Source: Paraburkholderia agricolaris
Lineage (GTDB): Bacteria > Pseudomonadota > Gammaproteobacteria > Burkholderiales > Burkholderiaceae
Direction: 5' to 3'
Length of the DNA: 64,000 nt
Assembly: GCF_009455635.1 (NCBI RefSeq)
Contig: NZ_QPER01000002.1
Location: 2,232,001 to 2,296,000, forward strand
The position numbers and the translations under genes are program-made. Under the pieces are notes generated by a model that saw only the letters and a program-made list of their open reading frames with translations, was not told the DNA's origin and searched no databases. The first letter of the stretch is position 1. The number at the start of each line of letters is the position of its first letter. Below are positions 4,532-37,765 of this stretch, piece by piece.

Positions 4532-5824
4532 TCACTTGGCCACCGCACTCACTGCCGTCCAGCGCGGCTCGGGTGTCTTGTCGCTGCTTCGGGCCAACAG
4601 ACACACCACACCCGCCGCGATGATGTCGAACACCGCCAGCACCACAAACAACGGGCTGTAGCCGATCTGCGTGACCAGCACGCCAAACAGCGCTGTGAAT
4701 GCCGCCGCGCCCAGATAACCCGCCATGCCGCCCATGCCGGTGGCGGTAGCGACTTCGTTCTTGCCGAACATGTCGGAGGTGATCGCGTACAGCGCACCCG
4801 ACAGGGTCTGGTGGGCAAAGCCGCCGACACACAGCAACGCAACGGCAGCATAAGGACTCGCCACCAGCCCGACGCAGGCCGGGCCGATCATGCAGAGCGC
4901 GCCAACCACGAAAACCAGCTTGCGCGACGTGAACAGCGAGACCTTCACATACTTATGAAACAGCGGGCTCAGGTAGCCGCCGAGTACGCAGCCGATATCC
5001 GCCGCCAGAAACGGCATCCACGCGTACAGCGCGACTTCCTTCAGGTTCATGTGCCGCTCGGTCATCATGTAGAGCGGAATCCACGCGTTGAAGGTTTGCC
5101 ACGCCGGCTCGGAGAGAATCCGCGGAATACCGATTGCCCAGAAATCGCGGCTGCCGAGCATGGCAGTCCAACTGCGTTTGACCGCGCCGAATTCACTGTG
5201 CTTCGCCTCCTGCCCGCTGAGGATGTATTCGCGCTCGGCGTCGCTCAACAGCTTCTGTTTCTGCGGGTGCTTGTACAGCAGCATCCATAGCACGCTCCAG
5301 ACAATCCCCGCCACGCCGACGATCAGAAACGCCCATTGCCATTGGCCGTGCAGCAACGCCCAGACAACCAGCGGCGGCGCCAGCAGCGCCCCCACGGACG
5401 AGCCGATATTGAACCAGCCAATCGCAACTGAGCGCTCCTTCGCCGGGAACCACTCGCTCGTCGCCTTGACGCCGGCCGGGATGCCGGCCGCTTCGGCAAT
5501 GCCAAGCACGCCGCGAAACAACGCCAGGCTGCGCCAGCCCGTCGACCAGGCCGCCGCCGCGCAGGCGAGCGACCAGGCCAGCGCAAACGCCGCAAAGCCG
5601 AGCTTGGTGCCGACCGTGTCGAGCACATAGCCCGCGACCGGCTGCATGAACGCGTAGCAAAGCTGCCACGCCACCACCACGTGCGAATACTGCGCGGTCG
5701 TGATGTTGAGGTCCTTCATCAACGTCGGCGCGGCCACCGACAACGTATTGCGCGCAAGGTAATTGATGATCAGGCCGGCCGCGACCAGGCTGACCATCCA
5801 CCAGCGGATGCCTTTGATTTTCAT
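4532..5824 (-). CDS. MFS transporter, ACS family, hexuronate/glucarate-type
   Basis: 430 aa, about 12 membrane segments, from the anion:cation symporter family that includes ExuT and GudP. It likely imports galacturonate or glucarate with protons. The start MKIKGIRWWMVSLVAAG and the first-helix motif INYLARNTLSVAAPTLM are typical of ExuT-like members, as is ATSEWFPAKERSVAIGWFN between helices 4 and 5. A GAGGAG ribosome site precedes the ATG. It lies 29 nt downstream of udh on the same strand, so the two probably form one transcript that couples uptake to oxidation. Exact substrate is inferred from context. Confidence 0.85.
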   Translation of the reverse strand: MKIKGIRWWMVSLVAAGLIINYLARNTLSVAAPTLMKDLNITTAQYSHVVVAWQLCYAFMQPVAGYVLDTVGTKLGFAAFALAWSLACAAAAWSTGWRSLALFRGVLGIAEAAGIPAGVKATSEWFPAKERSVAIGWFNIGSSVGALLAPPLVVWALLHGQWQWAFLIVGVAGIVWSVLWMLLYKHPQKQKLLSDAEREYILSGQEAKHSEFGAVKRSWTAMLGSRDFWAIGIPRILSEPAWQTFNAWIPLYMMTERHMNLKEVALYAWMPFLAADIGCVLGGYLSPLFHKYVKVSLFTSRKLVFVVGALCMIGPACVGLVASPYAAVALLCVGGFAHQTLSGALYAITSDMFGKNEVATATGMGGMAGYLGAAAFTALFGVLVTQIGYSPLFVVLAVFDIIAAGVVCLLARSSDKTPEPRWTAVSAVAK

Positions 5825-24948: not shown

Positions 24949-26385
24949 TCAGAACAGCTTGCCGGGATTCAGGATCCCATGCGGGTCCAAAGCGTGTTTG
25001 ATCGCGGCCATTGCAGCCAATTCAGCCGGCGAGCGCGAGATCGGCAAGAACTCGCGCTTGAGCAAGCCGATCCCGTGTTCCGCCGACACCGAGCCGTGCA
25101 AGGGCCCCAGCATCTCGTAGACGAAGGCATACACCGTACCGTGATCGACACCGGGGATCGAATGGCCATCCACGGTGACGTGCAGATTCGAATCGCCGAT
25201 ATGGCCGAAGAAATACGACGCGTTGCCCGGCCAGCGTTGATCGAGCGCCGCGCGGCAACGGTCGACGAAAGCGCCGATCTCGCCGATCGGCAAACTCACG
25301 TCGAAGTTGATCGCATCGAGCCGCACCGGAAATTCGGCGGTGCATTCGCGAATCGCCCATAACGCGCGCGCGTCGGCCACCGATTGAGCGATCACCGCGT
25401 CGCGGATCGCTTCTGCGTCGAGCGCTTCGGTCAGCGCGGCGGAGAAGCGTTCGCCGTCGTCGCCCGCGTCGAAACTCGCGTGTTCGATCAGTGCATAAAG
25501 CGGGTGCGGGTCGGCGAACGGCGAACGCGTGCCCGTCAGTTTCACGCCGAAATCGTAGAAATCCGGCCACATGATCTCGAACGCGCCAATGTCGTTGCCA
25601 AAGCGCGTCGACAGTCGGCGCAGCAGATTCACGGCCGCGTCGTAACCGTCGAGGGCGACGAGCGCCGTGTGACGCGCCGCGCGCGGCGGATGGAGCCGCA
25701 GCACCGCGCGCGTAATCACGCCGAGCGTGCCTTCCGAACCGATGAACCAGTGTTTCAGGTCGTAGCCGGTATTGTTCTTGACCATCTTGCCGAGCGACGT
25801 CAGCACGTCGCCGTTGGCGAGCACGACTTCGAGGCCGAGCACCTGGTCGCGCGCGGTGCCTGACTGGATCACGCGATTGCCGCCCGCATTGGTCGCGAGG
25901 TTGCCGCCGATCTGGCACGAGCCGCGTGCGCCCAGATCGAGGGCAAGTTCGAAGCCGGCTTCGGCGGCGGCTTCCTGTGCGGTTTGCAAGGTGGTGCCGG
26001 CGCGCACGGTGAGCGTGGCCGAGGCGGCATCGATTTCTTCAACGCCGGTGAGCCGCTCGAGCGACAGCGCGATATCGGTCGCGCGGGCAATCGCGCCACC
26101 CGCGAGTCCGGTCATACCGCCCTGCGGCACGACGGGCTGATACGCTGCGTGGCAAATCGCCAGCGCGTGCGAGACTTCTTCGGTGCTGCGAGGCAAAAGC
26201 AGCGCGGCGGGACGCGTTGGATCGTGGCGTGTCCAGTCGGACATCGCATGTTCGCCGATCTGCTCGCCGGTGCGCACCGCGTCGGCGCCGAGCGCGGCAC
26301 GTAGCGCATCGAGCGTAGCCGAAAGCGGTGCGACGCTATGGGTTGCGCTGCTCGCTGCGCCATTTGCCAAACTCTTATCTGTCAT
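24949..26385 (-). CDS. FAD-binding oxidoreductase, GlcD / D-2-hydroxyacid dehydrogenase type
   Basis: 478 aa. The N-terminal PCMH-type FAD domain has PAALLLPRSTEEVSHALAIC, VVPQGGMTGLAGGAI and GARGSCQIGGNLATNAGGNR. The C-terminal domain ends with GSVSAEHGIGLLKREFLP and DPHGILNPGKLF, typical of glycolate oxidase subunit D, D-lactate dehydrogenase and D-2-hydroxyglutarate dehydrogenase relatives. It oxidises a D-2-hydroxy acid and passes electrons to a carrier; the exact acid is unknown. AAGGA precedes the ATG. It lies 20 nt downstream of the oxygenase-like gene on the same strand, so the two are probably one operon, divergent from ABC cassette 1. Confidence 0.88.
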   Translation of the reverse strand: MTDKSLANGAASSATHSVAPLSATLDALRAALGADAVRTGEQIGEHAMSDWTRHDPTRPAALLLPRSTEEVSHALAICHAAYQPVVPQGGMTGLAGGAIARATDIALSLERLTGVEEIDAASATLTVRAGTTLQTAQEAAAEAGFELALDLGARGSCQIGGNLATNAGGNRVIQSGTARDQVLGLEVVLANGDVLTSLGKMVKNNTGYDLKHWFIGSEGTLGVITRAVLRLHPPRAARHTALVALDGYDAAVNLLRRLSTRFGNDIGAFEIMWPDFYDFGVKLTGTRSPFADPHPLYALIEHASFDAGDDGERFSAALTEALDAEAIRDAVIAQSVADARALWAIRECTAEFPVRLDAINFDVSLPIGEIGAFVDRCRAALDQRWPGNASYFFGHIGDSNLHVTVDGHSIPGVDHGTVYAFVYEMLGPLHGSVSAEHGIGLLKREFLPISRSPAELAAMAAIKHALDPHGILNPGKLF

Positions 26386-26405: not shown

Positions 26406-27371
26406 TTAAACGGCCGTTTTCTTCCGATAACCCATCGAATCGTTGATCCGGCCGAGGATGTAATCGCCCGCGGCGACCGGCTGATACTTGAGGTCGGCGT
26501 CGCTCGTACCGAGTTCACGCGGATCGACCGTCGCGCCGTAAGTGGGATCATAAAACGTCGCGATCGAATAGCGCTCGCGCCCCGATGCATTGATCACACG
26601 ATGCAAGGTGGAGCGGAAGCGATCGTTGGTCCAGCGCGCCAGCAGATCGCCAACGTTCACCACGAAGCTGCCCTCGATCGGCGGCGCGTCGACCCACGTG
26701 TCATTGGCGATCTCGCGCACCTGCAAGCCCCCTACCTGATCCTGCCATAGCAGGGTAATGCAGCCGTAGTCGGTATGCGGTGCAACGCCGAACTGATCCG
26801 CGTCCGATTGAGGCGGCTGCGGCGGATAGTAGACCATCTGCGTGCGCTGCATCCGCTTCGTATAGCGCGGCGTGAAGAAATGCTCGTCGACGCCGAGACT
26901 CACCGCCACCGCCCGCAGCAGATCGGCGCCGCATGCGGCCACCGCTTCGTAATAACCATAAAGCGCGGGCCGCAATTCAGGCATGAAATCCGGCCAGTTG
27001 TTCGGTCCACGCAACGCCTGACCCGCGCGCACATCGGGATCGTCCTCCGGCAATTCGAGGCCGATGCTGAAGAACTCCTTGTAGTCGGGGCGCTTCGCCT
27101 GATACATGGTGGCGTCGCCGAGCGCGTTGAAACCTCGATGCCGATGATTGACCGCCGCGCGCCGCTTCGTCTCGACAGGAAACGCAAAGAACGTGCGCGC
27201 CGCCTGGGCGGCTGCATCGATTGCCGTTTGTGGCACGCCGTGATTGACGATATAGAAGAAGCCGATCGTGGTGCACGCTTCGCGGATTTCATGTGCCACG
27301 CGGGTCAAGGCCCGCGGGTCGCCCGCGCGAACGCCGGCAAGATCGATGATCGGAATACGGGTCACGGGCAT
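26406..27371 (-). CDS. Isopenicillin-N-synthase-like Fe(II)/2-oxoglutarate-type oxygenase
   Basis: 321 aa. The N-terminal DIOX_N part contains GFFYIVNHGVP. The double-stranded beta-helix carries the iron triad His199 and Asp201 (in HTDYG) and His257 (in LHRVIN), with Arg267 in RYSIATF for the co-substrate carboxylate. The family hydroxylates, desaturates or cyclises small molecules. AGGGAG lies 7 nt before the ATG at 27371; upstream in-frame starts are not convincing. It is first in an operon with the FAD oxidoreductase and divergent from an amino-acid ABC transporter, with HutC-like palindromes in between, so the substrate is probably what that transporter imports. Confidence 0.88.
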   Translation of the reverse strand: MPVTRIPIIDLAGVRAGDPRALTRVAHEIREACTTIGFFYIVNHGVPQTAIDAAAQAARTFFAFPVETKRRAAVNHRHRGFNALGDATMYQAKRPDYKEFFSIGLELPEDDPDVRAGQALRGPNNWPDFMPELRPALYGYYEAVAACGADLLRAVAVSLGVDEHFFTPRYTKRMQRTQMVYYPPQPPQSDADQFGVAPHTDYGCITLLWQDQVGGLQVREIANDTWVDAPPIEGSFVVNVGDLLARWTNDRFRSTLHRVINASGRERYSIATFYDPTYGATVDPRELGTSDADLKYQPVAAGDYILGRINDSMGYRKKTAV

Positions 27372-27482
27372 TGCGCTGCTCCCTGGAAGGCCGGTCGATT
27401 CAACTGATAAAAGAGACTTGTGAGTCGGCTTGCGAATCGCTCCACTCGCGACACGCTCGCGTGCCTCTTCGTTGCTTCTTCG

Positions 27483-27494
27483 TTGTATATACCG
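27483..27494. promoter_or_regulatory. HutC-like half of an operator pair
   Basis: TTGTATATACCG. Its reverse complement, CGGTATATACAA, matches the site at 27582-27593 in ten of twelve positions. Sequences of the TTGTATATACAA type are bound by HutC-class GntR regulators. It lies 112 nt upstream of the leftward oxygenase start. Confidence 0.55.
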
Positions 27495-27581
27495 CCAAAA
27501 GCGCTCCCGCAAGTTGCTTCGCGTAGCCTCACATAAGGGCTTTTCTCTACTCGCGCGTTTATTTATTTCGCGCGAAAACTG

Positions 27582-27593
27582 CGGTATATACTG
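27582..27593. promoter_or_regulatory. HutC-like operator, second of a pair
   Basis: CGGTATATACTG, in inverted orientation to the site at 27483-27494 with centres 99 bp apart. It lies 74 nt upstream of the substrate-binding-protein gene, where repression by the HutC protein encoded at the end of this operon would be expected. Confidence 0.55.
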
Positions 27594-27666
27594 CCTCGAA
27601 TGAATCGCGCAGAGTCTGCTGACGAACCGCTTTCGCGCGACACCATTTTGCCAACCGGAGAATCCC

Positions 27667-28494
27667 ATGAGCATCCTTGCAGGATGGAAGTGTCGTTTGG
27701 TCATGCTGGCGTTGTGCGCGGCAAGCATCACCGCCCACGCGGACGATCAACTCGCCAAAGTGAAGAAAGCCGGCGAACTGGTGGTCGGCACCGAGATGCA
27801 GTTCGCGCCTTTCGACTTCCTTGAAAACGGCCAGCAAGCGGGCTTCAATAAGGATCTGTTCGCCGAGGTGGGCAAGGAACTGGGCGTGAAGGTGCACTTC
27901 ATCGACTTGCCGTGGCCAAGCGTGCTGCCGGGTCTCGAAGCCGGCAAGTTCGATATGGTGGGCGGGCCGTTGACAGTCACCAAGGCGCGCATGGAACGCT
28001 ACACGTACACGCTGCCGGTCGCGGACGCCACCGACGCGCTGCTCAAGCGCGCCAACGACACCGCGCTCAAGCAGTCGTCGGATATTGCCGGCAAGACTGT
28101 CGGCGCGGGCAAAGGCTCGGCCCAACTCGACCAGTTGAAGGCGTACGTCGCCACCTTGCCGAAGCCGCCTGAAATCCGCGAATACGTCGACAACAATCAG
28201 GCTTACGCCGACCTTGCCGCCGGCCGCATCGCGGCGGTCGCGAATTCGATGACGAATATCGCGTATGTCGCCAAACAGCGTCCCGAGGCCTTCGCCGTGG
28301 TACAGCCGCCGTTCGGCGCGAAGGTGTACTTTGCTTATTGCCTGCGCAAAGACGCGGATAGCAAGCCGCTTGCCGATGCCTTCAACGCGGCGCTCGTGAA
28401 GATGCACAACGACGGGCGCCTCGCGGCGTTGCAGAAGAAGTGGTTCGGTGTCGCGATGGACGCGCCGACCACGATGCCGTCGCCGAACTATTGA
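27667..28494 (+). CDS. Amino-acid-type ABC transporter substrate-binding protein (cassette 1)
   Basis: 275 aa, with a signal peptide ending near AHA|DDQ (residue 24). The mature protein begins with LAKVKKAGELVVGTEMQFAPFDF and has VGKELGVKVHFIDLPWPSVLPGLEAGKFDMV, the usual pattern of the family 3 (lysine/arginine/ornithine/histidine) periplasmic proteins. CGGAG precedes the ATG. It is first in a rightward operon with two permeases, an ATPase and a HutC regulator. The ligand is not decidable by eye; the ligand may be an amino acid or a betaine-like derivative. Confidence 0.9.
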   Translation: MSILAGWKCRLVMLALCAASITAHADDQLAKVKKAGELVVGTEMQFAPFDFLENGQQAGFNKDLFAEVGKELGVKVHFIDLPWPSVLPGLEAGKFDMVGGPLTVTKARMERYTYTLPVADATDALLKRANDTALKQSSDIAGKTVGAGKGSAQLDQLKAYVATLPKPPEIREYVDNNQAYADLAAGRIAAVANSMTNIAYVAKQRPEAFAVVQPPFGAKVYFAYCLRKDADSKPLADAFNAALVKMHNDGRLAALQKKWFGVAMDAPTTMPSPNY

Positions 28495-28520
28495 CGGTTT
28501 GACGCACGGAGGGGCCGCCT

Positions 28521-29171
28521 ATGTTCAGCACGACCGTCTTCCTCCAGGGTTTGCCGCTGCTATTGCACGCGGCACTCGCCACCATCGGCATTTCGCTGAC
28601 AGGTCTGCTGATCGGCTTTTTTGTCGCGATCGGCGTATGTGCCGCGCGCCTCTCGGCGAGGCGCACCGCGCGCATGTTCGGCGGCGCTTATGTGTTTTTC
28701 TTCCGCGGCGTGCCGATGCTGGTGCAACTGCTGCTGGTGTACTACCTGCTGCCGTTCGCCGGAATCAATGTCTCGCCCATCGTTGCGGCGATCAGCGCCG
28801 TGTCGCTATGCTCCGCCTCGTACATCGCCGAGATTCTGCGCGGCGGTTTCCTCAGTATTCCGCCGGGTCATCTCGAGGCCGCGCGCATGCTCGGTCTTTC
28901 ACCGTTCGATATGCTGCGGCGCATTTTGGTGCCGCAGGCGTTTCGCTTGACGCTGCCCTCGCTTGTCAATGAAATGGTGCTGCTGATCAAGGCTTCGTCC
29001 CTGATCTCGGTGGTCGGTGTGGCCGAACTGACGCGTACCGCGCAGAACATTGCGGCCAGCACCTATCGGCCGCTCGAAGCCTACGTCGCCGCCGGGCTGA
29101 TTTACTTCGTGATCTGCGGCTGCCTCGCGCTCGTTGCGCACGCCGCCGAATACCGTTTGCAGCATGCGTGA
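28521..29171 (+). CDS. Polar amino acid ABC transporter permease (cassette 1, first)
   Basis: 216 aa, five or so membrane helices, HisMQ-type permease. The first part has ALATIGISLTGLLIGFFVAI and VFFFRGVPMLVQLLLVYYLLP. The EAA loop that contacts the ATPase is GHLEAARMLGLSPFDMLRRI, followed by LVPQAFRLTLPSLVNEMVLL. GGAGGGG precedes the ATG. It pairs with the next gene to form a heterodimeric channel. Confidence 0.92.
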   Translation: MFSTTVFLQGLPLLLHAALATIGISLTGLLIGFFVAIGVCAARLSARRTARMFGGAYVFFFRGVPMLVQLLLVYYLLPFAGINVSPIVAAISAVSLCSASYIAEILRGGFLSIPPGHLEAARMLGLSPFDMLRRILVPQAFRLTLPSLVNEMVLLIKASSLISVVGVAELTRTAQNIAASTYRPLEAYVAAGLIYFVICGCLALVAHAAEYRLQHA

Positions 29172-29200
29172 ACGCCCCTGAGCCTGAGATCGAATAAGTC

Positions 29201-29863
29201 ATGCAAACGCTCGACCCCACCGTCATCACGCACAATCTGCAGCCGATTGCCGCCGGCCTCGCGACCACGCTCGGCACCTGGGCTGCCGGCGTGGTGATCG
29301 GCATCCTGATCGGCTTTCTGATCGCCGTGCTGCAACTCTTTTGCGGACGCTGGGTGCGCGGCCTGTTACGCTTCTATATCGAACTCTTCCGCGGCACGCC
29401 ATTCCTGGTGCAACTGTTTTTGCTGTACTACGGCGGCCCTTCCTTCGGCCTCACGCTCGAACCGATGACGGCCGGCGTACTCGGCCTGGGTCTCTACGGC
29501 AGCGCGTATTTCGCCGAGGCGTTTCGCTCCGGCTTTCAATCGGTGCCACCGGGTCATCTCGAAGCGGCCTCCTGTCTCGGGCTCACCCGCTGGCAAGCGA
29601 TCCTGCGCATTCAGGTACCGCAAATGCTGGTGCTGATCGTGCCCGCGCTCACCAACCTGATTATTGTGCTGAGCAAGGAAACCGCCGTGCTGTCGATCGT
29701 CACCGTCCCCGAACTCACCTTCGTGCTGACCGGCATTGGTTCGGCCACCTTCGCTTTCGTCGAGACGCTGCTGGTGCTATGCGTGTGCTATCTCGCGCTG
29801 GTTGAATTGACCTCGCGCGTGGGTATGTGGGCAGAAACCCGCATCGCGCGCTTCATGGCATGA
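29201..29863 (+). CDS. Polar amino acid ABC transporter permease (cassette 1, second)
   Basis: 220 aa HisMQ-type permease. [20 protein letters not shown] is the typical second-helix region, and the EAA loop is [20 protein letters not shown], followed by [20 protein letters not shown]. It starts 29 nt after the first permease and ends 19 nt before the ATPase gene. It lacks a strong ribosome site, so coupling to the preceding gene is likely. Confidence 0.92.
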
Positions 29864-29882
29864 ACGCAATCCGGACCTCCCT

Positions 29883-30752
29883 ATGAACGCTATCGCCGAC
29901 ATGCCCTCCTCCGCGTCCACCGCCGCCTTCGATACGCCGACAGGCGCGCCGCTCATCGAAGTGCGCGGCCTGAAAAAACGCTTCGGCGAAGTCGAGGTGC
30001 TGCGCGGCGTCGATCTCGAGATCGCCCGCTCCGAAGTGGTCTGCATCATCGGCCCGTCGGGTTCGGGTAAAAGCACACTGCTGCGCTGCCTGGCCGCGCT
30101 CGAAACCTACGATCAGGGCGACGTGCGCATCGAAGGCGAATTGCTAGGCTATAGCGAGCGCAATGGAAAACGCGTGCGAGCGTCGCAGAACGAGATCAAT
30201 CGCGTGCGGCGCAACGTCGGTATGGTGTTTCAGCAATTCAATCTGTGGCCGCACATGACAGCGCTCGGCAATGTGATGGAAGCCTTGCTGCGCGTGCGCC
30301 ATCTGTCGCATGACGAAGCGCGCCGCCGCGCCAATGCGATGCTGGAAACCGTCGGCCTCGCGCATAAGGGCGACGCCTATCCTGCGAAACTCTCGGGCGG
30401 CCAGCAGCAACGCGTTGCGATTGCACGCGCGCTGGCGATGGAGCCGCACATCATGCTGTTCGACGAACCGACCTCGGCACTCGATCCCGAGCTGGTCGGC
30501 GAAGTGTTGCAGGTAATGAAGCAGCTTGCGCGCGACGGCATGACGATGGCCGTGGTCACGCACGAAATGGGTTTTGCCGCGCAGGTGGCCGACAAGGTCA
30601 TGTTCATCGACCAGGGACATATCGCCGTGCAAGGCAAGCCGCGCGAAGTCTTTCACGATGCGGGGCAGCCGCGTTTGCGGCAGTTCCTGCAAAACTATTT
30701 CGACCGCAATGCGTTCTGGACACGCGGCCCTGACGACGTGGAACCGCAATGA
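29883..30752 (+). CDS. Polar amino acid ABC transporter ATP-binding protein (cassette 1)
   Basis: 289 aa. Walker A is GPSGSGKST (57-65), the signature is LSGGQQQR (170-177) and Walker B is IMLFDE (190-195), with the switch His in VVTHEMGFA. An unusual N-terminal tail of about 20 residues precedes the domain. The stop overlaps the ATG of the HutC-type gene by 4 nt (ATGA), which ties the regulator to the transport operon. Confidence 0.94.
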
Positions 30753-31498
30753 AGACCATGCACACGGCGATTGAGCCGCCCGCCGCCCGCTACGAACAGG
30801 TCAAGAACCATATCCGCCAGATCATCGAATCGGGCGGCCGGCAAGCGGGCGAACGGCTGCCGTCCGAACAGGAACTGGTCACGACACTCGGCGTGTCGCG
30901 CATGACGGCGAATCGCGCGCTGCGCGAACTGGCCGATGAAGGCCTCGTCACCCGCGTGTCCGGCGTCGGCACCTTCGTCGCGCAAACCAAGCCGCAATCC
31001 ACGCTGCTGATGATCGCCCATATCGGCGACGAAATCCGCTCGCGGGGTCACGAATACAGCTACGACACGGTTCTCGCGCAACGCGAAACCGCGCCGGTGA
31101 CTGTGTCGAACGCACTAGGGCTGGCGCCCGGAGCGTCCGTGTTTCATGTGATTTGCGTGCATCGCGAGAACGGCTTGCCGGTGCAGCTCGAAGACCGTTA
31201 CGTCAATCCGGTAACCGCGCCCGACTTCCTGAAGCAGGACTTCGCCACGACGAGGCCGTCCGAGTATCTGTTCGTGACGGTGCCGGCGCACGACGTCGAG
31301 CATGTCGTCGACGCGGGCCTGCCGACGCGCACTGAGGCCGAATTGCTGGAAATTCACGCCGACGAACCGTGCCTGACGCTGATGCGCCGCACCTGGACGA
31401 GCGGCGTTGCGGTCACGTTCGCACGCTTCGTGCATCCGGGTTCGCGGTACCGGCTGGGTTGCCGGTTCACGCCGGACCTGTCGCAGCGCCAGGGCTAG
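30749..31498 (+). CDS. GntR/HutC-family regulator (cassette 1)
   Basis: 249 aa. The winged helix at about 14-80 has [19 protein letters not shown] and [20 protein letters not shown]. The UTRA ligand domain (about 100-240) has [19 protein letters not shown] and the closing [11 protein letters not shown]. HutC proteins are repressors released by urocanate or related compounds. It is translated from an ATGA overlap with the ATPase gene and probably acts on the palindromes at 27483 and 27582. It converges on a second HutC-type gene. It is a paralogue, not the classical hutC, since hutUI are absent here. Confidence 0.9.
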
Positions 31499-31537: not shown

Positions 31538-32305
31538 TTATACGTTGCCCGCCAGATGAAAACGCGATGCCGGATGCCACAACTGCACCGACGTCGCCAC
31601 ATCGTCGCCCACCCAGGTGCGGCGCCATAGCTGCAAGCATGGCTCGCCGATATCCATCATCAGATGCCGTCGCACATATGCGTCGGGCTTCTGCGCATAG
31701 ATGCGAAACTCCGCGCGCTGGATCGGCGCGAGCCGCACCATGTAATGATTCGGCGTCTCGACGGTGAAGTCCTGTTGCAGGTAGTCGGGAAACACCTTCG
31801 GATTGACGTAGCGATCTTCGTACTGAATCGGCTCGCCCTCCTCGCTATGCACAATGCACGAGTGAAACGCAGGGCCGCTGGCGAGGCCGAGCGCTTCGAG
31901 CGCGTGTGGATCGTCGCTGGGTTCGAGCATCAGCACACGCGCTGAATGACGATGACCGCGCGCGGCGATTTCGTCGGCAATATTGCGGATTTCCAGTACC
32001 GTCGATTCGTAGCGCTGCGGCGCGACGAACGTGCCGGAACCTTGCACGCGCGTCAGCACGCGTTCGGTGGTGAGCTCGCGCAAAGCGCGCGACACGGTCA
32101 TGCGCGCGACGCCGAATTCCTTGACCAGTTCCGTTTCGGATGGAATCAAGCCGCCCGGCTTCCAGTCCCCTTCGCTAATGCGCCTGAGTACATAGCGCTT
32201 GATCTGCTCGTAGGCGGGCATCGCCTTGGCGGGTGTCTGCTGGGTACGGCCAGGCGGGTCCTGCGTCTCTGCGGTTTGCGGGTGTGTGTTTGTAATAGTG
32301 TTCAC
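31538..32305 (-). CDS. GntR/HutC-family regulator (cassette 2)
   Basis: 255 aa with a probable GTG start at 32305 behind GAGG; the in-frame ATG at 32221 would shorten it by 28 residues and still leave the DNA-binding domain whole. The winged helix contains PAYEQIKRYVLRRISEG and ARMTVSRALRELTTERVLTR. The UTRA domain has YEDRYVNPKVFPDYLQQDF and HPASRFHLAGNV. The N-terminal 25 residues are Thr/Gln-rich and probably disordered. It is the last gene of the leftward cassette 2, 185 nt after the lyase homologue, and likely represses it from the sites at 37533 and 37707. Confidence 0.88.
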   Translation of the reverse strand: MNTITNTHPQTAETQDPPGRTQQTPAKAMPAYEQIKRYVLRRISEGDWKPGGLIPSETELVKEFGVARMTVSRALRELTTERVLTRVQGSGTFVAPQRYESTVLEIRNIADEIAARGHRHSARVLMLEPSDDPHALEALGLASGPAFHSCIVHSEEGEPIQYEDRYVNPKVFPDYLQQDFTVETPNHYMVRLAPIQRAEFRIYAQKPDAYVRRHLMMDIGEPCLQLWRRTWVGDDVATSVQLWHPASRFHLAGNV

Positions 32306-32384
32306 GTCGACCTCGTGGGTGGTACGCGGGTGGTACACATTTTTGGCCAGCTCACTGGCGGGTAGCCCGCTCACCGGCTCTGTC

Positions 32385-32490: not shown

Positions 32491-34134
32491 TCAACCTGCA
32501 TGGGCGGCCGCGCTGCCATCATTGGCCGCCGGATCGGCGCCGAGCCGGTCCGCGGCAGCAACACTCGTCACACTTGCCAAAGCAGCAAGACTCGCGCCGC
32601 TGGTCAAAGCATCCGGCCCGGGCCGAATATTACCCGGGTTTGGCAGCGGTGGCGGCATTCCGTCGGCGATCATGCGAAACGCAATCGCCATGTCGTCCGC
32701 GAGCGGCCGGTCGTCGCGGTAAGTCGGCACGACACGGCGTACGCGATGCCAGAGCGCATCCGTGTGCGGCGCGCGCGGCGCATCGACGCTCTGCAGATCG
32801 TAAGCCTGTGCCGCCGCCAGCAATTCGATAGCAACAATGCGCCCGGCATTGTCGAGAATCTCCAGCGCCTTGAGCGCGGCAGGCGTGGCATGGCACAGGT
32901 GGTCCTCCTGCAAACCGGACGTGATACCGCCGTCGAGACTCGCCGGCATCGCGAGGCGCCGGTTCTGCGCCACCAGCGAAGCCGCCGTGTACTGCGCGAT
33001 CATGAAGCCGGAACAGGTGCCGCCCGGCTCCGCGAGAAACGCCGGCAAGCCGCTCACGAGCGGATTGACGAGGCGGTCGAGGCGCCGCTCGGCCATCGCC
33101 GCGACTTGCGCGATCGCGGTGGCAAGGCTGTCCATCGCCAGTGCGATCGACGCCCCCACCGCATGCGCCTGCGAATAGACACGTGGCGCTTCAGGCGTGC
33201 CGGCGACGATCGGGTTATCGGTAATCGATGCGAGTTCGCGATTGACCACGTCGGCGGTCGCGGTGAGCACGTCGCGCGCGGCGCCATGTACGTGCGGAAT
33301 GGTCCGCATGCTCAACGGGTCTTGCGTGCGCTGGCCGATCACTGCGGCGAGAATGCCGCTGTCGGCGAGCGCGATGCGCATCCGTTCTCCAACCAGATTC
33401 AGGCCCGGCGAAATGCGCAACGCCAGCGAGTCTTCATCGAAAGCCGCGATCTGGCCGCGCAGGTTCTCGAAGCTCATCGCGGCGACCACATCGGTCCAGT
33501 CGAGCAGGCGTGCGGCACGCGCCAGCGCCAACGCGGCGAGGCCCGTCACGCACGGCGTGCCGTTGACGAGGCATAAGCCCTCTTTCGCGTCGAGCACCAG
33601 CGGTTCGAGGCCGAGTTGTTGCAAAGCATCACGCCCTTTGATGCGTTCGCCGCGATAGCGCGCATGGCCCTCGCCAATACAAACCAGCGCGATATGCGCC
33701 ATATGACTCAGATAACCGACCGAGCCGAACGCCGGGACTTCCGGCAGGCAATCGGCATTGAGCAATGCGACCAGTCGATCCGCAACTTCGAGGCGAATCC
33801 CCGAATGCCCGTGCGCAAAGTTGTTGACGGCGGCCGCCATGATCGCGCGCGTCTCAGCGACACCGAGTGGCGCGCCCACGCCTACCGCGTGGCTCATCAG
33901 AATGTTGCGCGACAGGGTGCGTTGTTCGGACGGCGACACGATCACATCGCACAACGCGCCGACGCCGGTATTCACGCCATACGCGCGCATCCCGCGCTCG
34001 ACGATCTGTTCAACAAGCACGCGCGCCGCCGCGATACGCGAACGGGCTTCAGCGGAAAGTTCGAGCGGTTCACCGGCGGCGATCGCCGCCACCTGAACCC
34101 AGTCGAGAGGACGATCGGAGCGGATCACAGCCAT
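32491..34134 (-). CDS. Histidine-ammonia-lyase homologue lacking the MIO triad
   Basis: 547 aa, same fold and length as HutH. Family blocks are AYGVNTGVGAL (Tyr52), LVNGTP (Asn191), TDNP (305-308), SGFMIAQYTAASL and LQEDH (408-412). The loop that normally reads GSVGASGDLAP reads GSVGYLSHMAH (137-147): exactly the Ala-Ser-Gly that cyclises to the MIO electrophile is missing, with the frame intact on both sides. The usual QDxYSLR is QDPLSMR (271-277), and the GNFHG block is replaced by SQAHAVG. It therefore cannot work like HutH. It may catalyse an MIO-independent elimination, for example trimethylamine release from ergothioneine as by ergothionase, an activity reported from a Burkholderia strain. 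It lies downstream of a complete ABC importer and upstream of a HutC regulator on one strand. No strong ribosome site is seen. Confidence 0.8.
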   Translation of the reverse strand: MAVIRSDRPLDWVQVAAIAAGEPLELSAEARSRIAAARVLVEQIVERGMRAYGVNTGVGALCDVIVSPSEQRTLSRNILMSHAVGVGAPLGVAETRAIMAAAVNNFAHGHSGIRLEVADRLVALLNADCLPEVPAFGSVGYLSHMAHIALVCIGEGHARYRGERIKGRDALQQLGLEPLVLDAKEGLCLVNGTPCVTGLAALALARAARLLDWTDVVAAMSFENLRGQIAAFDEDSLALRISPGLNLVGERMRIALADSGILAAVIGQRTQDPLSMRTIPHVHGAARDVLTATADVVNRELASITDNPIVAGTPEAPRVYSQAHAVGASIALAMDSLATAIAQVAAMAERRLDRLVNPLVSGLPAFLAEPGGTCSGFMIAQYTAASLVAQNRRLAMPASLDGGITSGLQEDHLCHATPAALKALEILDNAGRIVAIELLAAAQAYDLQSVDAPRAPHTDALWHRVRRVVPTYRDDRPLADDMAIAFRMIADGMPPPLPNPGNIRPGPDALTSGASLAALASVTSVAAADRLGADPAANDGSAAAHAG

Positions 34135-34188: not shown

Positions 34189-34980
34189 TTAATTAGTCGT
34201 GCGATCCTGGTGACTCGACACGAACTGGCGGAACCGGTCCGACTTGCACTCGACGAACACTTCGTCCGGCGTACCATCGGCTTCGACCTGACCTTGATGC
34301 AGGAACATCACGCGATTCGACACGTGCCGCGCGAAGCCCATCTCGTGCGTGACGACCAGCATCGTGCGGCCTTCTTCGGCGAGCGAGCGCATCACACGCA
34401 GCACTTCACCAACCAGTTCCGGATCGAGCGCCGAGGTCGGTTCGTCGAACAGCATCACCTTCGGATGCATCGCCAAAGCGCGCGCGATCGCCACGCGCTG
34501 CTGCTGGCCGCCGGACAGATGCGCCGGATAGTGGCCGCGCTTTTCCGCCAGGCCGACTTTCGCGAGCAACGCTTCCGCCTCTTCAACCGATTCGGCTCGG
34601 CTGCGCTTTTGGACACGCATCGGCCCTTCGATCAGGTTCTCCAGCACGGTCATATGCGACCACAGGTTGAAGTTCTGAAACACCATGCCGAGTTGCGAAC
34701 GCACCCGGTCCACCTGGCGGCGGTCGCTCGGTTGCAGCTTGCCGTCACCGCGCCGCTTCATTTTCAGTTCTTCGCCGCCGAGCGCGACCGAGCCGTCATC
34801 CGGCGTTTCGAGCAGATTCAGGCAGCGCAGGAAGGTGCTCTTGCCGGAACCGCTCGCGCCGAGAATCGAAATCACGTCGCCTTGATGGGCGTCCAGCGAA
34901 ATGCCTTTGAGCACATGGTGGTCGCCGAACGACTTATGGATGTTCTTGACCGACAGTGCAACGGGTGCCGTAGCATTCAT
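34189..34980 (-). CDS. Polar amino acid ABC transporter ATP-binding protein (cassette 2)
   Basis: 263 aa. Walker A is GASGSGKST (41-49), the signature LSGGQQQR (155-162), Walker B VMLFDE (175-180) and the switch [13 protein letters not shown] lies 6 nt before the ATG at 34980; a longer frame from 35088 would overlap the permease end and adds Arg-rich residues, so I rejected it. It starts 34 nt after the permease stop and ends 54 nt before the lyase homologue. Confidence 0.94.
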
Positions 34981-35014: not shown

Positions 35015-35770
35015 TCAGGGCGTAGCGCGGCGCGCTTCGGTCGTGGTCGAAACCGGCCGGCTCGGCGCGCTTTGCGCGGGCGCCGCACGCAAATGGCGCG
35101 ACAGGCGCGTCTCGAGGAAACCGAGCAACCGCACGATGACGAAATTCAGGAACAGATAGATCAACGCGGCGCAGATGAATACTTCCGTAGTGCGGTACGT
35201 TTGCTGAATGATCTGCTGCGCGACACCGGTCACTTCCCACACGGTGACGAGACTTGCGAGCGCGGTGGATTTGACGAGCAGCACGGCCTCGGTGGAGTAC
35301 GCGGGCAGACACTGACGCAACGCAATCGGACCGATCACACGGCGCAGCAGCGCGAAACCCGACAAGCCGATCGAATAGCCCGCTTCGATCTGGCCGACCG
35401 GCACGGCCATCAAGCCACCGCGAATAATCTCGGCGGTATATCCAGCGGTGCACAGCGCCAACGACAAAACCGCGCACATGTACGGCTCGCGCAACACCGG
35501 CCACAGAAAGCTCTCGCGAATCACGCCGAACTGGCCCATGCCGTAGTACACCAGGAACATCTGGATCAGCAGCGGCGAGCCGCGGAACACAAGGATATAA
35601 GCACGCGCGAAGCGGTTCGGCAGCCAGTGAGGCGACACGCGCATCGTGACGATCACGAGCGAAAGCAGGCCACCCAGAATCAGCGAGCAGAAAAACAGCC
35701 CGAGTGTGGTCGGCACGGCCGCGATCAGTTGCCGCAGCGTATCGAGCAGGAAATCGAAGTCGAAATGCAT
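35015..35770 (-). CDS. Polar amino acid ABC transporter permease (cassette 2, second)
   Basis: 251 aa HisMQ-type permease. It has [20 protein letters not shown] and the EAA-loop region [20 protein letters not shown], followed by [20 protein letters not shown]. The C-terminal tail is longer than usual (about 30 residues, Ala/Ser/Pro/Thr-rich). It follows the other permease by 15 nt. Confidence 0.92.
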
Positions 35771-35785
35771 GATGTCCGGTCCTCG

Positions 35786-36508
35786 TCAGTTGCGCGCGAA
35801 GTTGCGCTTGAAGGATCGGCCCACGCGCGCTTCGGCGCGGTTGAAGACCCGGTTCGAAATGCTGGTCATCAGCAGATACAACGCGCCGCCCACCACGAAG
35901 AACGTGAAGTATTGATGCGTCGAACCCGCCGCCACCTGGCTCACGCGCAGCAATTCGGCGAGCCCCGTGACGGAAATCAGCGCCGAGTCTTTCAGGCTCA
36001 ATTGCCAGACATTGCCGATGCCCGGCAACGCGAAACGCAGCACTTGCGGAATCAGAATGCGGCGCGCCATGGTCATGGTGGGCATGCCGATCGAACGCGC
36101 CGCTTCGAGCTCGCCGCGCGATACCGCGAGCACCGCCGAGCGGTACACCTCGGCCTGATACGCGCCGGAAATCATGCCGACCGCGAGCGCGCCCACCACG
36201 AACGGCGGCACGCCGACAAAGCCGTCCGCGCCGAACCATTGACCGATCGTGGTTACAAGCGTCGAGCCGCCAAAATAGAACAGATAGATGACGAGCAACT
36301 CAGGTACGCCACGAAACACCGTGGTGTACGTATCACCGATCACGCGCAGCGTGCGAAACCGCGACAGCTTGGCCGCCGCGACCAGCGCGCCGAATACGGC
36401 GCCGACCGCGAGCGCTGCCAGCGTGAGCGCGACCGTCATCAATGCCGCGAGCAGCAACACGCCGCCCCAGCCCTCCGGCCCGAAGCCGAGCATCTCTATC
36501 AGAGCCAT
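35786..36508 (-). CDS. Polar amino acid ABC transporter permease (cassette 2, first)
   Basis: 240 aa HisMQ-type permease. TVFRGVPELLVIYLFYFGG and the EAA loop GELEAARSIGMPTMTMARRI identify it, with LIPQVLRFALPGIGNVWQLS after it. A GAGGGGTAGGGA stretch precedes the ATG. It is 105 nt downstream of the binding-protein gene and forms a heterodimer with the next permease. Confidence 0.92.
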   Translation of the reverse strand: MALIEMLGFGPEGWGGVLLLAALMTVALTLAALAVGAVFGALVAAAKLSRFRTLRVIGDTYTTVFRGVPELLVIYLFYFGGSTLVTTIGQWFGADGFVGVPPFVVGALAVGMISGAYQAEVYRSAVLAVSRGELEAARSIGMPTMTMARRILIPQVLRFALPGIGNVWQLSLKDSALISVTGLAELLRVSQVAAGSTHQYFTFFVVGGALYLLMTSISNRVFNRAEARVGRSFKRNFARN

Positions 36509-36613: not shown

Positions 36614-37474
36614 TCAAGGCGTGACGTCGGTCTTGAACCACTTGGTGGAGAGCTTCTTGACGGTGCCGTCTGCAAGCGCGGCGCCAATCGCGGTGTCGAA
36701 TTTCGCTTTCAGGTCAGCGTCCTGCTTGCGGAACGCGAGACCTTCACCCGGACCCCAGATCGGGCCGCCGATCTTCGGGCCGGCCATGACGACCGACGCG
36801 TTGTCCTTCTTGTCCATGTTGGCGGCGTAGTAAGTCACGTCGTCGAACGAGGCGTCGATACGGCCGTTGGCCAGATCGAGGTCGCGCTCAGGCGAGGTCT
36901 TGTAGACACGGATCGTGGAGACGTCCTTGAAACCGTCGTTGATGAACTTGGTGTAGACCGTGCCTGACTGAATGCCGATGGTCTTGCCCTTCAGTTGCTT
37001 GCGCAACGCGTCGACGGTGGGTTGATCGGTTTTCGGATCGCCCGACAGCTTGACGACCGGCGCGCCCGGCGCAGCCTTGGGCAACACCTTCGCGTCGGTC
37101 ACGGCGAACGTGGCCGGCGTGGCGGCGTAGGGCCTGGAGAACGCAATGATCTTTTCGCGTTCCGGCGTGATCGAAATCGCGTCCATCAGCACGTCGAACT
37201 TGCCCGCCTGCAGACCGGGAATCATGCCGTCCCAGTCTTGCGCCACGAGGTTGCATTGCAGCTTGATGCGCTCGCACAGATTGGCGACCAGCTCAGGTTC
37301 GAAGCCGCCCAGCTTGCCGCCCGGCAGCGTCAGGTTCCATGGTGCGTAACCGCCCTCCAGGGCGATCGTCACCGTCTTCCAGTCTTTGGCCTGCACCGGT
37401 GCCGCGAAAATCGTCGCGGCACCGAGAACGGCACCCATCACTGCTTTTGCTAACGTCGTGCGCTTCACTTTCAC
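36614..37474 (-). CDS. Amino-acid-type ABC transporter substrate-binding protein (cassette 2)
   Basis: 286 aa with a GTG start behind AAGGAG. The signal peptide (MKVKRTTLAKAVMGAVLGAA...) is probably cut after PVQA near residue 29. The mature part has TIALEGGYAPWNLTLPGGKL, FDVLMDAISITPEREKIIAF and an extra loop KVLPKAAPGAPVVKL before LKGKTIGIQSGTVY. The loop is like those of opine- or arginine-binding relatives. It heads the leftward operon SBP-permease-permease-ATPase-lyase homologue-HutC. Two HutC-like palindromes lie upstream. Confidence 0.9.
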   Translation of the reverse strand: MKVKRTTLAKAVMGAVLGAATIFAAPVQAKDWKTVTIALEGGYAPWNLTLPGGKLGGFEPELVANLCERIKLQCNLVAQDWDGMIPGLQAGKFDVLMDAISITPEREKIIAFSRPYAATPATFAVTDAKVLPKAAPGAPVVKLSGDPKTDQPTVDALRKQLKGKTIGIQSGTVYTKFINDGFKDVSTIRVYKTSPERDLDLANGRIDASFDDVTYYAANMDKKDNASVVMAGPKIGGPIWGPGEGLAFRKQDADLKAKFDTAIGAALADGTVKKLSTKWFKTDVTP

Positions 37475-37532: not shown

Positions 37533-37545
37533 TTGTATAGACAAG
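37533..37545. promoter_or_regulatory. HutC-like operator upstream of cassette 2
   Basis: TTGTATAGACAAG, with TTGT and ACAA half-sites, 59 nt upstream of the GTG of the cassette 2 binding protein. It is close to operators described for HutC regulators (TTGTATA-type palindromes). Confidence 0.6.
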
Positions 37546-37706
37546 TCTGCATGAGTCAAAAAGCCATCGCAAGAGGATTTGTTTGAAATCACGCAGATCA
37601 TCGGGTAAGCCCCTATAAGATGCCGTGTGACAAGGCTTTAAAGGGTGCTTCGACCGCACGAAGATGGCGCACCGAGCGTAGCCGGGTGCACCAATTCGAT
37701 TTCTTT

Positions 37707-37716
37707 TGTCTAGACA
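37707..37716. promoter_or_regulatory. Second HutC-like palindrome upstream of cassette 2
   Basis: TGTCTAGACA is a perfect 10-bp palindrome within TTGTCTAGACAG, related to the site at 37533-37545. It is 233 nt upstream of the binding-protein start, so looping between two sites is possible. Confidence 0.5.
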
Positions 37717-37765
37717 GGTTGGCGTCTGAAGTGCTGGCGCACTTCGAATCGGCGCGTTGCGCGCC

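Follow-up and report, generated by a model that had tools for sequence, protein, structure and literature searches.

What does a histidase homologue do once the residues that build its cofactor are missing? The question is raised by a stretch of 64,000 nucleotides from Paraburkholderia agricolaris (NCBI RefSeq assembly GCF_009455635.1, contig NZ_QPER01000002.1, positions 2,232,001 to 2,296,000), hereafter the window, in which an operon encodes a relative of histidine ammonia-lyase (HAL, HutH) without the Ala-Ser-Gly triad that forms the 4-methylideneimidazole-5-one (MIO) electrophile. Among the aromatic amino acid lyases, this protein is one that does without MIO. We consider it probable, judging from sequence and genomic context, that it is a trimethylamine-lyase under HutC-type control that would convert hercynine (N-alpha-trimethylhistidine, histidine betaine) into urocanate. 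The clade of the lyase, its missing MIO, its retained residues, its operon, the urocanase neighbours of its relatives in other taxa and the sites shared with the hut operon were all computed; hercynine as the substrate is the weakest link of the proposal. The gene and its loop are located as follows.

32491..34134, minus strand: MIO-less histidase-family lyase (predicted hercynine trimethylamine-lyase), 547 aa, ATG start, fifth gene of the operon
33694..33726, minus strand: MIO loop, codons 137-147, GSVGYLSHMAH, three residues shorter than in HutH

The gene is read from 34134 to 32491, on a strand that the preliminary description of this DNA had left unstated. Its product matches Pfam Lyase_aromatic over residues 11-466 (E 7e-153), and comparison with HAL-family structures reveals the HAL fold, with residues 499-547 forming a low-confidence tail in the predicted model. 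The score against the curated hutH equivalog TIGR01225 is 468 bits, under the 539-bit cut-off. The earlier reading of residues 137-147 as GSVGYLSHMAH, with a MIO loop three residues short, an altered QDxYSLR motif and a lost GNFHG block, is borne out by alignment with HutH: QDPLSMR stands in place of QDPYSLR (Y280->L) and QAHAVG in place of GNFHAE (F329->A). The gap itself can be aligned with A142->Y and S143-G144-D145 missing or, equally well, with A-S-G missing and D145->Y. Nothing suggests that a sequence error removed the triad, as had been envisaged, since all of the best 120 of 5453 homologues (84-97% identity) carry GSVGYLSHMAH and lack A-S-G. The same loop is present at the window-type loci L003, L039-L069, L102 and L103 (74-100% identity), and more distant members read GS(V/A)GY(L/I).

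In a tree built with the loop columns excluded, the window clade forms one group of 16 rows (support 100/99) with members from Burkholderia pyrrocinia, Sinorhizobium meliloti, Rhizobium etli, R. leguminosarum, Aureimonas, Roseateles, several Pseudomonas and two Paenibacillus. The A-S-G triad is absent from all 16 rows. In each of them A142 is replaced by Y, the three positions after it are lacking and Y280 is replaced by L; F329 has become A in 13 rows and P in three. Residues Y53, H83, N195, Q277, R283, M382 and E414 (HAL numbering), which by HAL precedent provide the base/acid, carboxylate and imidazole contacts, are retained in 16/16 rows. Of the nine HAL active-site residues considered, the lyase of the window keeps seven, Y280 and F329 being altered.

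Two further MIO-less groups emerge from the tree. One contains 17 rows (100/100), mostly with GSVGYL(A/S/G)(P/V)E, and is joined to the window clade without support (31/89); the other unites the Treponema denticola ergothionase with two Paenibacillus lyases encoded next to a thiourocanate hydratase (100/100). Loci of the former, sister clade (L104, L105, L114-L123, L125, L128, L129, L132, L134, L135, L137 and L139) were encountered in Pseudomonas, Rhizobium, Paenibacillus, relatives of Bacillus and Streptomyces, where the product is commonly annotated as histidine ammonia-lyase. Some members lie close to canonical HutU; others have beside them a VanA-type Rieske oxygenase and a reductase (L105, L114, L115 and L118-L120), together with a window-type importer.

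Urocanate is well supported by context as the predicted product. A urocanase is clustered with a window-clade lyase at four loci (L099, L110, L138 and L140). In genome G009, the genes after the lyase are hutU, hutD, hutI, hutF and hutG; in Aureimonas, it lies between hutF and hutI and is followed by hutG, hutU and hutD; in Paenibacillus PL91 and P. eucommiae, it precedes hutU and hutI. When these four urocanases and those of five sister-clade clusters were scored, all nine proved to be canonical HutU (945-1004 bits, NCBIfam cut-off 375); as thiourocanate hydratases they reach 663-718 bits, under the 930-bit cut-off, and they fall below both thio-type cut-offs. The MIO-less lyase and the HutH of G009 seem to need the same next enzyme because the only HutU of this genome follows the former, while the MIO-bearing HutH is found elsewhere with a histidine-type importer. 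In the draft genome of P. eucommiae, the only PF00221 match is the MIO-less protein, located beside the only HutU match. Two Pseudomonas loci (L251 and L252) display the order hutF / hutC-hutD-hutU-transporter-hutXWV-MIO-less lyase-hutH-...-hutI-hutG, in which the MIO-less lyase occupies the hutH1 place of hutXWV-hutH1, and a third (L249) carries the same genes in a slightly different order.

The neighbours of the lyase had been described as a complete ABC importer upstream and a HutC-family GntR regulator downstream, and this arrangement was found by profile matching.

36614..37474, minus strand: substrate-binding protein, SBP_bac_3, Lys/Arg/Orn/His type, first gene of the operon
35786..36508, minus strand: ABC importer permease
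35015..35770, minus strand: ABC importer permease
34189..34980, minus strand: ABC importer ATPase, HisP/GlnQ type, member of the lyase operon
31538..32374, minus strand: HutC-family GntR/UTRA regulator, downstream of the lyase (TIGR02018, 277 bits, cut-off 220)

The regulator is 55-56% identical to the HutC of the hut operon. Among the 32 best-scoring loci (L038-L069, L038 being the window itself), the ATPase is upstream of the lyase in all 32 and HutC downstream in 30; of the two others, L045 stops at a contig end and L069 carries a urocanase instead. The type of importer differs between taxa. An OpuAC glycine-betaine-type binding protein is encoded beside the lyase at the four loci tested in S. 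meliloti, two Paenibacillus and Pseudomonas (L107, L138, L140 and L249), and a few genes from it in Aureimonas (L110), which brings the positives to five out of five. Burkholderiaceae and some rhizobia possess an amino-acid-type (His/Arg) importer. A substrate both histidine-like and betaine-like, such as a histidine with a permanent charge, would fit both types. The idea of an eliminase acting on a histidine-derived betaine supplied by the importer had already been put forward, and it gains support from the clustered urocanase, the betaine-type importers and the shared hut-type sites.

These sites lie ahead of the operon.

37533..37544, no strand: palindrome TTGTATAGACAA / TTGTCTATACAA, predicted HutC-type operator, exact TTGTMTAKACAA copy
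37706..37717, no strand: second copy of the palindrome, one mismatch, from a motif scan

This operator-like palindrome is common to the lyase operon and the hut operon of the genome. The window contains two TTGTNTANACAA-type palindromes (at most one mismatch), for 0.31 expected in 64 kb, and both lie 59-243 bases ahead of the binding-protein gene that opens the operon. Stronger evidence comes from the genome as a whole (8.72 Mb), in which the exact 12-base palindrome TTGTMTAKACAA has just three copies (reversed control 0), preceding hutH, a cytosine/purine-type permease gene and the lyase operon; two further near copies accompany the hutH copy, and the permease is 75% identical to the transporter in the Pseudomonas hut operon L251. 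A site with at most one mismatch is situated within 300 bases of the binding-protein gene at 6/6 Burkholderiaceae loci, the window and L101 being near-identical, and four hut-free control stretches (79.6 kb) contained none. HutC is predicted to bind these palindromes, and urocanate would induce the lyase operon via HutC-type repressors. At C2:1642734 (L312 6735), a perfect CTTGTCTATACAAG palindrome precedes a cytosine/purine-type permease, likely a urocanate transporter of the hut regulon encoded far from the hut genes. At position 5330 of the sister-clade locus L105, an exact TTGTCTATACAA site stands ahead of the Rieske oxygenase gene; the sister clade may therefore be under HutC-type control as well.

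How such an enzyme might work without its cofactor can be outlined from HAL. The upstream importer would bring hercynine into the cell, the lyase would grip its imidazole and carboxylate as HAL does, and the conserved base would remove the beta-proton. The loss of MIO together with Tyr280->Leu and Phe329->Ala would free room at the amine site, from which trimethylamine would exit by beta-elimination, and the resulting urocanate would be processed further by HutU and the remaining hut enzymes. MIO would be unneeded because a quaternary ammonium is already a good leaving group, whereas the MIO of HAL activates an ordinary amine; trimethylammonium departs without MIO aid, and ergothionase is the precedent. 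The residue pattern is the computed part of this scheme, and we infer from it the steps beyond. Hercynine is a betaine formed en route to ergothioneine (PMC7653990). A literature search largely confined to non-subscription papers, and hence no proof of absence, showed no dedicated bacterial route of hercynine breakdown and no hercynine lyase.

We would give slightly better than even chances to a broader proposal: a dedicated hercynine lyase would constitute a second point of entry to the histidine pathway, widely distributed among bacteria of soil and plants and hidden as hutH1 in Pseudomonas, hutH2 in S. meliloti and 'HAL/PAL/TAL family ammonia-lyase' elsewhere, and at least three groups of MIO-less eliminases would be split by leaving group. 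If this were true, the well-studied hut operon would acquire a missing substrate, the observation that a histidase is not required on histidine would be accounted for, and many genomes would turn out to be misannotated for one branch of this pathway (hutH2 in S. meliloti, hutH1 in Pseudomonas). Trimethylamine would gain an additional natural source, and the clade would offer a clear case of an enzyme family shedding its built-in cofactor once the leaving group makes that cofactor needless.

Several observations weigh against the hercynine proposal. Urocanate would also result from other histidine derivatives whose leaving group is good; the importer of Burkholderiaceae and some rhizobia is not of the betaine type; and no trimethylamine-handling gene was noticed adjoining the operon, although no search was aimed at one. 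The sister clade has importer kinds like those of the window clade and some members near canonical HutU, and both clades occur in some genomes (G191 and G553), which makes the split of substrates between them ambiguous. Regarding the operator, 6/100 shuffles of the window alone gave at least two such palindromes, and the motif was found before the operon at none of the four loci tested outside Burkholderiaceae. A S. meliloti hutH2 mutant reportedly grew about 30% less well with histidine as nitrogen source, which would hint at a connection with histidine itself. In an approximately unbiased (AU) test, a joint group of the window clade and the ergothionase group was not rejected at 0.05 (p 0.071), and the two may share an older MIO loss. 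Lastly, a locus of a Brevibacillus metagenome-assembled genome (L246, 6516-14295) encodes a lyase with GSLGVGDLQPMAH together with a thiourocanate hydratase (1031 bits), a thiohydantoin desulfurase (614 bits, cut-off 440) and an importer of the betaine type. Despite this ergothioneine setting, its lyase is placed outside the supported ergothionase group (29/91); the other six of the seven lyases in thiourocanate-hydratase loci fall inside it. The L246 lyase is perhaps a second line of ergothionases. Because of its position, ergothionases may not be one clade, and clade alone leaves ergothionase status undecided. The window clade is still set apart from them by its urocanase setting and by the pathway missing in the window's genome.

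Among the competing explanations, it is possible, if unlikely, that the lyase makes urocanate from another histidine derivative such as N,N-dimethylhistidine or another N-substituted histidine, or from imidazole lactate by loss of water. The context says more about the product than about the substrate, many importers of the clade are of the amino-acid type, and in Roseateles the gene after the lyase is annotated as an oxidase, solA (N-methyl-L-tryptophan oxidase). Against this reading stand the OpuAC betaine-type importers that adjoin the lyase in S. meliloti, Pseudomonas and two Paenibacillus and, on general chemical grounds, the poor ability of tertiary and secondary amines to leave without MIO.

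A MIO-independent histidine ammonia-lyase, providing a second route from histidine, is improbable. It would agree with the retained fold and most HAL contact residues, with the reported partial growth phenotype of S. meliloti hutH2 and with P. eucommiae, which has no other PF00221 match. Against it, the lyase lacks the MIO triad, and 16 of the 17 genomes scanned possess, in addition, a family member that bears A-S-G, P. eucommiae being the exception. SBW25 hutH1 is reported to be dispensable on histidine, and the hutXWV-hutH1 module is reported in P. aeruginosa too (PMC8871633); nevertheless, a P. aeruginosa delta-hutH mutant (PA5098) grows poorly on histidine (PMC12772324). The latter source names PA5093 hutG, which differs from the expected layout.

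That the lyase is an ergothionase, the main idea of the preliminary description, is not supported and is very unlikely. The window protein belongs to a separate supported clade. This clade lacks the marker residues K63, S195, N197 and K386 (HAL numbering), which the six ergothionase-group rows all share, and has C/S/A63, N195, T/L/S197 and Y386 in their place. The protein itself reads N195-G196-T197 where the ergothionase group has S-S/C-N, and M382 where that group has G/S. The window's genome contains no thiourocanate hydratase, its sole urocanase (HutU) scoring 687 bits for a cut-off of 930. In Paenibacillus (L244), an ergothionase-type lyase, an S-Me-THD-family protein, a hydratase, an M20-type hydrolase and an amidohydrolase are encoded side by side, a gene set that matches the five-step ergothioneine pathway; the thiourocanate hydratases of L244 and L245 score 1023 and 1021 bits. 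Seven of 200 Burkholderiaceae genomes have a thiourocanate hydratase over the cut-off. Of the six such loci examined, four hold an ergothionase-group lyase (GSIGEADIT/GSLGEADIT, SSN, LQDPLSFR/LQDPLSYR), and these four lyases score 322-362 bits to the Paenibacillus ergothionase-group lyases but 155-175 to the window protein. Moreover, genome G219, of the same genus as the window, has an 86% window-type gene in addition to an ergothionase-type gene located in an ergothioneine locus. Another family member without the triad is encoded in the window's genome at C2:358046-359356 (L004; L006 12942-14390), with GSIGQSDMSP and LQDPLCFR; it adjoins an apparent MFS transporter, with no hut gene recognised nearby, and joins the ergothionase group by a long branch only (99/98, flagged by the program as possibly false).

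A non-catalytic role, for instance as sensor or carrier of urocanate or histidine, would suit the lost cofactor, and one Pseudomonas HutH copy is said to have been called non-functional in the original paper, but it is hard to credit for a protein whose putative catalytic and binding residues are conserved without exception in Proteobacteria and Paenibacillus and whose linkage to the importer is strict (32/32 loci).

A convergent set of genes lies beyond the regulator of the lyase operon.

30749..31498, plus strand: second HutC-family regulator, with the convergent importer
27667..30752, plus strand: second amino-acid ABC importer (genes 27667-28494, 28521-29171, 29201-29863 and 29883-30752)

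This second importer is probably a histidine importer because homologues of it and its HutC (27667-31498; 70-80%) adjoin the MIO-bearing HutH in G009. Beside it are encoded an isopenicillin-N-synthase-type 2-oxoglutarate/Fe(II) oxygenase (26406-27731) and a GlcD-like FAD oxidase (24949-26385); a homologue of the latter (66%) also occurs in the G009 HutH locus, so that the oxidase may serve histidine uptake or use. At L098 (8965-10215, genome G356), the start of a window-type binding protein is fused to the end of a lyase, as if a deletion had collapsed the operon. The window's genome also encodes a MIO-bearing PAL/TAL-like protein (C1:890861-892207, L007) among acyl-carrier-like genes, in a cluster that presumably resembles aryl polyene pigment loci.

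The lyase can finally be compared with known systems. Tyrosine and phenylalanine ammonia-lyases and aminomutases have the fold in common with it but are MIO-dependent, act on aromatic substrates and share 24-34% identity. The HAL of Pseudomonas putida (1b8f) is 37-38% identical and differs by the MIO-forming A-S-G, by Y280 and F329, replaced here by L and A, and by the hutH cut-off, under which the lyase falls. The T. denticola ergothionase (6s7j) is alike in its MIO independence, its Leu280 and a probable release of trimethylamine, yet it is 28% identical, belongs to a separate clade and differs at residues 63, 195-197, 382 and 386; its partner is thiourocanate hydratase, whereas that of the window clade is HutU. 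Pseudomonas HutH1 and S. meliloti HutH2 have both been called histidases. Their importer (hutXWV) is of the glycine-betaine type and that of the window of the amino-acid type, but at the Pseudomonas and S. meliloti loci examined they fall in one clade with the lyase (100/99) and, like it, associate an importer and a MIO-less lyase in a hut setting.
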